DNA of 64,000 nt. Source: Algisphaera agarilytica. GTDB taxonomy: Bacteria; Planctomycetota; Phycisphaerae; Phycisphaerales; Phycisphaeraceae. The stretch is from contig NZ_JACHGY010000001.1 of assembly GCF_014207595.1 (NCBI RefSeq), forward strand, positions 3,814,212-3,878,211, written 5' to 3'. The notes under the pieces were generated by a model. The model was not told the DNA's origin. It searched no databases and worked only from the letters and a program-made list of their open reading frames with translations. Below are positions 48,269 to 51,265 of this stretch, piece after piece (the stretch's first letter is position 1; every line of letters starts with the position of its first letter). Position numbers and translations under genes: made by a program.

Positions 48269-49384
48269 ATGAACTACCAGCCACTAATTGTGGCATCACT
48301 TTGCGCCAAAAGTATCAAACTAACCGCGGGGACCACATTGGAAACACATCAGCCTCGTCTGCTGTCATCTAAATTTTATCTGATACTTCTGTTCCTGTTC
48401 ATTTGCGGAACAGGCACACCGACTTGCTTTGCCCAACTATCTGACAAAGAAGACCCGGAGTACAAGCGATTAATTAAAGCGATAGAGCCACTTAAATACC
48501 AAGGAAACTTCCAGGCCTATCACTTCGAGATCACAGAAATCCTCCAGCAACACCCTCACGTTCCGAGCCTATGGAGTGAAGCTGCTTTCAATTTGATCTA
48601 CAACATTCCTAGCACCAAGCAAAGCTATGCGGAACGCTGGAAAAACGTAAAAGACGGCTTACAGTTGATTGGGCAAGATGCCGTCACAAAAAACCCTGAG
48701 TCTGCAGAACTAAGAACAGAAATGGCTTGGTTCTATCTGCATCTATTTAGACATAGATTCGATGAGATCCACAATTACTATACAGTGAGACATCTCGAAG
48801 AATGGAGCGCAACTCTCGCGAAAAATGAGCTCGAGATTGCGCTAGTATCAAATAACATTTCAATTGAGCTAGTCGGAAACCTAGAAAACCACCTCGGCAC
48901 TTTAGATTGGCGACACCCATCAACTCACGGCATTTACTGGGCAACCGAAGCATTCTTGCTTTCAAACGGCCTAGAGGTCATTGATGGCAACGAAACTGAA
49001 TGGCTGATCGACAGGATGGTGTTTTTCCATCTTCGCAATCTTCTCTATGAAGGTACCATGTCGATATCCGAGATCGAGAAGCAAGAAACAATCTCCGTCA
49101 ATCCAAACCCTCAATACTTAGAGATCGCAGAAAAAGCACACCTGGCAATCTTCGATGCTGGCTTGATGTCGTCACCAACTGTGGAACTCGAAGATTTTTA
49201 CATTTCAGGGATTTACATTAACGCGCGTTTCGGGAACATAAATGACGCCGAGACATTTCGGAAGCACGCTCTACAGACAATGTTAGAAAAAGGAGTTTCC
49301 CCTGAGGTCACCTTACTGGACGGCAGCACCAATCAAATAGTTGAGTATGTTGATTCCTCGGTATCGGCAAGTAACCCTGAGTGA
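48269..49384 (+). CDS. Secreted hypothetical protein, AT-rich
   Basis: This 371-residue protein has a rather long N-terminal region with a hydrophobic segment at about 37-52 (signal or anchor), then a helical exported body. The sequence GTLDWRHPSTHGIYWATEAF near residues 210-229 is distinctive and I have seen similar 'DWR.P..H.iYWA' proteins without known role. Base composition is clearly lower in GC than nuoF, with only three bases between the genes, which suggests insertion next to nuoF. Function unknown. Confidence 0.65.
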   Translation: MNYQPLIVASLCAKSIKLTAGTTLETHQPRLLSSKFYLILLFLFICGTGTPTCFAQLSDKEDPEYKRLIKAIEPLKYQGNFQAYHFEITEILQQHPHVPSLWSEAAFNLIYNIPSTKQSYAERWKNVKDGLQLIGQDAVTKNPESAELRTEMAWFYLHLFRHRFDEIHNYYTVRHLEEWSATLAKNELEIALVSNNISIELVGNLENHLGTLDWRHPSTHGIYWATEAFLLSNGLEVIDGNETEWLIDRMVFFHLRNLLYEGTMSISEIEKQETISVNPNPQYLEIAEKAHLAIFDAGLMSSPTVELEDFYISGIYINARFGNINDAETFRKHALQTMLEKGVSPEVTLLDGSTNQIVEYVDSSVSASNPE

Positions 49385-49445
49385 CAGAGTAAGTGAAGAG
49401 GGCAGATAAGGGGAGGTGTGGACTTGATTTGGCTGTATTCTCCTC

Positions 49446-49853
49446 TCAGATATGCGCACGCGTTTTGAGGAATTCGAAATACTTAGGGTCCTGACCCTCA
49501 ATTACTGCCTCAGCATCGCCCATGTAAGCTCGCATCAGTTCGTCTGCAGCAAGATCCAAATCATTCATTTCAAATCGACATTGCCCTAATCGCATATGGA
49601 TGTAGGGGTTACCGAATCCTGTGGCTGAAAACAAAGCTTTATGAAATGCCACGTGAGCCTCTTCATGCCGATTCATAAAAAGAAGAGCATCGCCTATGGC
49701 GGTGTACAGCCAAACGGATGCGGCATAGTCATGCTTTGGTTCAGGTACCAACGATAAAGCTTCTTGGTAAGCAATTAATGCGCCGAGAAGATCTTGGCTG
49801 TCGAGAAGTCTGTCTCCTGCCTGACATAGATCAGTGATCTTTGGGTCTAGCAT
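49446..49853 (-). CDS. TPR-containing protein
   Basis: This 135-residue helical protein has three or so tetratricopeptide-like units: LDSQDLLGALIAYQEALSLV, AIGDALLFMNRHEEAHVAFHKAL, and RLGQCRFEMNDLDLAADELMRAYM. The end (GQDPKYFEFLK) is conserved in a family of small TPR proteins seen in several bacterial groups. The start is the second ATG, with an AGGAA site close before it. Function is unknown; it probably binds protein partners. It stands alone on the minus strand next to the repeat array. Confidence 0.6.
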   Translation of the reverse strand: MLDPKITDLCQAGDRLLDSQDLLGALIAYQEALSLVPEPKHDYAASVWLYTAIGDALLFMNRHEEAHVAFHKALFSATGFGNPYIHMRLGQCRFEMNDLDLAADELMRAYMGDAEAVIEGQDPKYFEFLKTRAHI

Positions 49854-49983
49854 CGACTTCCTGGGTCCGGACAAGAGCTTGGCTTTATTATCGGCTGAGA
49901 CGCTTGGCAAAGTCTAACGTTATTGAAGGGCAAAGGTGGGGACAGGGACAGAAAAAGGGAGGCGTACATTATTCCCAGGGGCG

Positions 49984-50256
49984 GCAAGTATCCTTTCAGA
50001 CAGCAAGAGAGTTCTTTACGGCTCTGAGAGACTTCTTTCCGCACCTTGAAGAGTTCATTCCGACGCGCAAAGCATACTTTCCAGACCGAAAAGTATGCTT
50101 TGCGCTCCTGAAAGCATGCGCCAAGGCCCGCAAAGGATCCTTTTAGGTGCGCAATGAGTTCTTCAAGCCTTAAAAAGGATCCTTTTCAGAGCGTAAAGAA
50201 GTCTTTGAGCCGCAACAGGTGTGCTTCAAGCACCGAAAAGACTTCTTTATGGAGCA
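49984..50256. repeat. Phased 21-bp repeat array, 13 units
   Basis: Thirteen units start every 21 bases without a single slip (49984, 50005, 50026 and so on to 50236). Each has a 13-base core and an 8-base variable linker. Core position 5 is G and position 10 is C in all 13 units; position 8 is T in 12. The consensus is AAAG-N-N-T-N-C-TTT, and many cores are palindromes (AAAGGATCCTTT twice). Some pairs are exact reverse complements: AAAGCATACTTT with AAAGTATGCTTT, and AAAGAAGTCTTT with AAAGACTTCTTT. Translation gives a Lys-x-x-Phe heptad with stops, so no single protein is encoded. I do not recognise a named family. No gene accompanies it in the 500-base gap. Confidence 0.9.
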
Positions 50257-50354
50257 TTTTCCCTGCACTATCCCATTTATTCAGACGCCAGCAGATTCCG
50301 GGGCATCACGTTGTTCTGGCCCGGCCACCCATGCCTAGCGACGTGTTCCGCACC

Positions 50355-50702
50355 TCAATTCACTGGCGCGCATGTGGAGTCCTCGGTATCAGCCGGGGGC
50401 TCTGAGGAGCGTAAGCGGTGAGAAGCCGACTTCGAGTGAAGATAGACGGCGCGGCCACCTATCGGCAACAGCAAACAGTTGAAAAGGAATGCCCAGAGGA
50501 CCGAACCCAATACCCATATGCCGTCGTAATCAGGCCAGACTCCCGATGCCAGGGCAATAAACCCGATCGCCCAAAAACCAGGAATGGCAAGAAGTTGTGC
50601 TCCGAGGAGGCCAAGCAAGCCGTATTTACGGGCCAATCTCCACGTTGCTAGCGTCAGCAGTAAAAGGATGAGGCACTGAAAGATGTTACCCACGTGTTCC
50701 AC
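50355..50702 (-). CDS. Small membrane protein
   Basis: This 115-residue protein starts at a GTG and has three hydrophobic segments, at about residues 7-22, 28-52 and 62-82, followed by a basic, Ser-rich tail. It reads away from the region beyond it. No family is recognised. Base composition is moderate. It lies next to the 21-bp array, with the TPR gene on the other side. Confidence 0.55.
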   Translation of the reverse strand: MEHVGNIFQCLILLLLTLATWRLARKYGLLGLLGAQLLAIPGFWAIGFIALASGVWPDYDGIWVLGSVLWAFLFNCLLLPIGGRAVYLHSKSASHRLRSSEPPADTEDSTCAPVN

Positions 50703-51265
50703 TAAGCACCTAACGTCAAAAGCTCAATTGCTGGCCGCCCGCGGGATGGGACGTTCCCCGGTAAACACATTTTACACGCACCCGTCAGCGGCGGGTTGGT
50801 GCGCACGAGGAATCACACGCGGGTGATGTATTCCAGAATATTTTTGGCGATCTATCCCACGATTCGGCTTCGCCTTGCGCGTTTCGGGGTTGAAAAAGCG
50901 CGCACAAACGCGGCGTGGTACCCCCTAATGACAGGCAGATATCGGCACCCGGTGGCGGGGCGGTGGTGACAGGCAAGGACCATCGTCTCGGGCACGCCGG
51001 GAGGGCCGGGCTCGCGCTCTTAAAGCGTGGGGGTTTCGGCGTTCGTCGGTGAGTCACCTTGCCGACAACAGACACGATGGACTGTGGCGTAATCGCGTTG
51101 CCACCCCCAACACGCGGGTCGAGGACGACGGCAGGTTTCGAGATCGGCAGGCGTGTGGGCCGTTGCACGCGTCGGCCGTGGGCCGAGCGTTCGCTCTTTG
51201 GCAATTTGGGGGCTTGGGTGTTGGGGGCTTGGGGGCTTGGACTGCCCGCGGGGAGATTTCTGTCG

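Follow-up and report, generated by a model that had tools for sequence, protein, structure and literature searches.

A noncoding 21-bp tandem array with a palindromic core and exact spacing in Algisphaera agarilytica

Plasmid iterons and ParR-type centromere repeats are direct repeats of about 20-22 bp whose copies follow each other at a distance of roughly two turns of the helix. Cyanobacterial heptamer STRR repeats and BIME/REP elements are intergenic noncoding repeats, and REP elements are palindromic. For members of the Planctomycetota in lakes, deletions of slippage type at intergenic tandem repeats are reported (PMC9426551). In yeast, template switching results in spacer inversion and arm homogenisation, and the spacer inversions are found exclusively on arms >9 bp (PMC8604942). 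Template switching can also generate stems and compensatory changes (PMC8794818). Descriptions of the 21-bp class of bacterial tandem repeat analysed here were not found in the open-licence literature.

The window, which is the whole 64,000-nucleotide stretch of A. agarilytica DNA that was analysed, contains an array of this class. It is located in a lower-GC stretch between nuoF and an MFS transporter gene, together with three ORFs showing either no Pfam match or TPR only. The features are as follows.

48269..50700, no strand assigned: lower-GC stretch, 45-57% against 62% for the window, from the GC profile and the ORF/Pfam survey
49446..49910, minus strand: ORF of a TPR-repeat protein, up to 154 aa, identified by Pfam; the array is upstream of the ORF start
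49984..50256, no strand assigned: tandem array, 13 units, each exactly 21 bp long, plus-strand consensus NAAAGNNTNCTTTNMGSMSCN, recognised by exact period and column conservation
50065-50080 / 50090-50105 (50065..50105), no strand assigned: perfect 16-nt inverted repeat with a loop of 9, read directly; units 5 and 6 plus the outer linker ends
50194-50206 / 50237-50249 (50194..50249), no strand assigned: perfect 13-nt inverted repeat of units 11 and 13, from sequence comparison
50355..50702, minus strand: ORF of 115 aa without Pfam match, neighbour of the array

The array resembles iterons and ParR-type centromeres in its repeat length of about 20-22 bp and its two-turn spacing. Unlike them, it is chromosomal, stands beside nuo genes and carries a dyad of its own in each unit, and no cognate rep or par gene was seen among the five flanking ORFs, for which Pfam gave TPR, MFS, sulfate permease or none. 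STRR and BIME/REP repeats are likewise intergenic and noncoding, but their unit length and sequence differ, and a 7-bp sub-period is almost absent from the array. The lake Planctomycetota repeats are similar in being noncoding, intergenic and tandem, and polymerase slippage is invoked there as well (PMC9426551); the passages on them state neither a unit length nor a palindromic core or phase. The template-switching systems have homogenised arms, inverted spacers and compensatory changes like those of the array loops; they are single inverted repeats or RNA stems, whereas the present array is tandem with fixed spacing (PMC8604942, PMC8794818).

The units are arranged head-to-tail from 49984 in 21-base steps throughout. 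Column information is 0.92 bits at period 21 and 0.07-0.23 at every other period between 15 and 27. The 13 units score 19.3 against 3.8 in 2000 shuffles (sd 0.7, maximum 6.1). Elsewhere in the window no score exceeds 13.0, a value that belongs to a site at 22.1 kb for which Tandem Repeats Finder (TRF) gives a 24-bp repeat. Mean pairwise unit identity is 0.54, with 0.66 in the core and 0.38 in the linker; because the units average only 54% identity, TRF missed the array at default settings and found it at relaxed settings. Conservation is unevenly distributed over the columns. G5 and C10 occur in 13/13 units, as the sequence-only reading of this DNA had stated, and T8 and T12 in 12/13. Two other statements of that reading had to be revised: the core is AAAG-N4-CTTT and not AAAG-N5-CTTT, and the linkers do not vary freely, as G16 and C20 are each kept in 11/13 units and A or C at position 15 in 12/13. 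For each of five rates, none out of 300 simulations with a uniform rate reached the observed variance of column entropy. Like a noncoding minisatellite, the array is made of head-to-tail copies of one unit which is not coding.

The core positions 6 and 9, for which covariation had been claimed, are complementary in 9/13 units against a shuffle mean of 3.9 (p=0.003). Both reverse-complement unit pairs named along with them were recovered. The pair at 50068 and 50089 is part of the perfect 16-nt inverted repeat, whose arm (50065-50080) is the longest in the array and is equalled in 1% of column shuffles, while the pair at 50194 and 50236 extends over 13 nt. Mutually reverse-complementary spacer forms, the mark by which template switching is recognised, were in excess inside single arrays of the kind described below: 24/198 loop partners were found against 3.4 expected from same-position changes (about 7x), and 20/192 against 2.6 when the window array was left out. 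Since the loop flips and inverted units match what template switching yields, the 6/9 covariation does not demonstrate selection for RNA or protein. Covariation together with reverse-complement units is a signature that template switching can produce without selection for RNA, a warning for the reading of covariation within repeat arrays as RNA function. The loop-flip excess could equally stem from selection for dyad symmetry, and the single-core arms of the window array are 4-5 bp, against the >9 bp of the yeast spacer inversions.

Intermixed core orientations were also observed elsewhere. At loci L174 and L175 the reverse-complementary cores AAGAAGTCTT and AAGACTTCTT occur together in each array on a shared linker background, and at L175 they mostly alternate, which creates a superperiod of 42 bp. 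In Geomonas edaphica, two arrays on separate contigs, L091 (7352-7636) and L122 (5292-5555), have mutually reverse-complementary units; no other array was found in a further 103 kb scanned from this species.

The explanation towards which we lean, with confidence a little above even, is that a noncoding minisatellite of 21-bp units with palindromic cores was formed by slippage and template switching and is probably held in register. Replication slippage would multiply a unit of 21 bp, the length of two helical turns. Through the core arms AAAG/CTTT the nascent strand would be able to fold back, and arm-to-arm template switching would then homogenise the arms, flip the 4-nt loops and duplicate entire units the other way round, as for units 5/6 and 11/13. 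The linkers would diverge later, the unit spacing and the G/C/T anchor positions being retained. The retention points to a DNA-register constraint which would keep all cores on one helix face, most simply through a putative DNA-binding or architectural protein.

Similar arrays were searched in GTDB genomes with a pattern that requires AAG-N4-CTT three times at 21-bp intervals and in which the spacing of 21 is therefore preset. At least 119 stretches matched; among the 119 listed, 93 are within real 21-bp arrays, 70 of them in arrays of eight units or more. According to the record titles, the array-bearing genomes belong to Bacteroidota, Spirochaetota, Verrucomicrobiota, Chloroflexota, Pseudomonadota, Desulfobacterota, Cyanobacteria and other phyla. 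When gaps of 2-30 were permitted in 30 genomes preselected for 21-bp arrays, nearly all among the matches listed were spaced 21. In the Bacteroidota MAG G078, scanning of 397 kb for periods 8-70 revealed period 21 in 63 arrays and period 42 in 14, and all remaining periods together accounted for 5. The TRF counts (59 at 21 and 14 at 42, of 78) are in agreement. These arrays (loci L180-L199) are mostly intergenic (70/77), most have their own unit, and they occur about once per 5 kb, a density that may be somewhat overstated because most of the sampled contigs carry pattern matches. A second MAG, G098, has 9 arrays in 59 kb, 6 at 21 and 2 at 42. Twenty other Bacteroidota genomes, sampled over 325 kb in all, gave a single 21-bp array, and strict AAAG-core triplets were present in 2/296 Bacteroidota genomes, G078 being one of the two; the array density is therefore lineage-specific. 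At L164, three neighbouring arrays (1564-1803, 1869-2157 and 2505-2814) have three different units, all of period 21. Viral contigs were tried as a control and set aside as uninformative for noncoding arrays: real arrays at periods 18, 21 and 24 outnumber those at 20 and 22 there, a pattern expected if coding repeats prevail in these contigs.

The spacing, which had been described as 21 bases without exception, was found in 12/12 steps of the window array against 90 substitutions from consensus, counted over the 13 units. In the palindromic comparable arrays 654/663 steps are 21 bp against 2314 substitutions from consensus, and in the G078 arrays 501/503 against 1756. Unit spacing that drifts freely in relatives, named beforehand as an outcome contrary to the earlier reading, was thus not seen in the comparable arrays, which are analogues found by pattern and not homologues. 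The statistic depends on the aligner: under relaxed TRF, indels amount to 5% in the window array and to 1.0-1.3% in the comparable 21-bp arrays. Mismatches in the latter are at 17-19%, against about 1% for indels, and the exact ratio of indels to substitutions is therefore method-dependent. As the spacing is held at 21 while the linkers diverge, some DNA-level constraint is likely. Selection for a DNA- or RNA-level function had been proposed earlier, and of this proposal one part stands, since core and spacing conservation exceeds uniform neutral drift, while RNA or hairpin function is unsupported. Neither slippage nor coding accounts for a 21-bp spacing fixed in noncoding DNA despite linker divergence, a pattern seen at single loci in several phyla and very densely in at least one genome. 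This raises the question by what process or protein a length of two helical turns would be measured. A 10.5-bp bending signal as a general feature was absent in G078, where a slight 7-bp component appeared instead.

Predicted protein dimers bound to each dyad core, two turns apart and on one face, would turn the array into an operator, a centromere-like site or a nucleoid site, and we regard this as possible but doubtful. Exact 21-bp steps between diverged linkers, invariant G5/C10, the core dyad symmetry with its 6/9 complementarity and the location in front of the TPR ORF are consistent with such binding. However, across 40-odd loci no common neighbour gene was found apart from array-overlapping ORFs and a few isolated pairs, palindromy is weak in G078 (9/63 of the 21-bp arrays at p<=0.05), and the array was undetected in 391 other genomes of the phylum. 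A further proposal, also unlikely in our judgement, is that exactly 21-bp-phased noncoding arrays represent an undescribed functional class, for which an architectural or binding protein of wide occurrence would maintain the register; genomes such as G078 would then have about one such array per 5 kb, mostly with a unit of its own.

A noncoding RNA of serial hairpins transcribed from one strand appears improbable. Both strands are more stable than dinucleotide shuffles (z -5.8 each), as such an RNA would be, but against column-shuffled arrays the fold energy is at z -1.6 and 5/60 of these are equally low. Column-shuffled arrays fold about as well, so the palindromic columns suffice to explain the fold energy, and the fold stability beyond columns that marks a structured RNA was not found. 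The hairpin folding taken earlier as a sign of function loses its weight accordingly. An RNA would also not need the exact linker length. Rfam gave nothing at gathering score; its microRNA models matched the 50065-50105 hairpin and 50121-50199 weakly (E 0.09-0.7, far below gathering), and promoter-like and terminator-like sites showed no excess over shuffles.

All six frames contain stops, 1-4 per frame over the 13 units, in line with the earlier judgement that stops make a coding role unlikely. Open frames in 65 comparable arrays are about as frequent as in reversed controls (169 vs 160), and triplet periodicity of variability is absent (21/20/21 of 62); an intact heptad protein in homologues, the other outcome named against the earlier reading, found no counterpart as coding signal in these pattern-found analogues. 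In the wider set, 8/64 arrays sit within long ORFs and are probably coding. Pfam gave no significant match for the array readings, and the protein reading of both strands was rejected on the stops, the lack of a Pfam match and the lack of a triplet pattern. With the minus-strand reading (X at stop), tblastn gave one weak Arthrobacter plasmid match, judged to be chance, and none in phages; the array itself had no blastn match among plasmids or phages. The window array shows neither the open frame nor the codon-position pattern of a heptad-protein gene, and coding is ruled out for it as far as computation can. A decayed heptad-repeat gene would suit the seven-codon period, the heptad-like minus-strand readings (e.g. 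KxxFxxL) and the absence of indels, but it is very improbable given these stops and missing coding signals, and it leaves the palindrome unexplained.

Pattern and profile searches of the whole genome found no second array, and an unbiased scan of a 400-kb genome sample found no array. A four-unit profile gave nothing convincing in 50 other family genomes, where the best E was 0.05; across 391 other members of the phylum, searched with the stricter filters used for large sets, it produced no match at E 1e-4. The family, genus and phylum searches revealed no homologous array among related species. Two genomes of the genus carry nuoF too, with 81% identity; within about 1.5 kb of its flank no array was found, and tblastn detected neither the three neighbouring ORFs nor the transporter near it. 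The array has no detected relatives in genus, family and phylum and stands in a stretch of lower GC, and it was therefore probably gained or formed within this lineage; acquired DNA may have carried it. The window also contains a repeat of about 8 bp, TTGGGGGC, in 4.5 copies at 51206-51240, upstream of the MFS gene.
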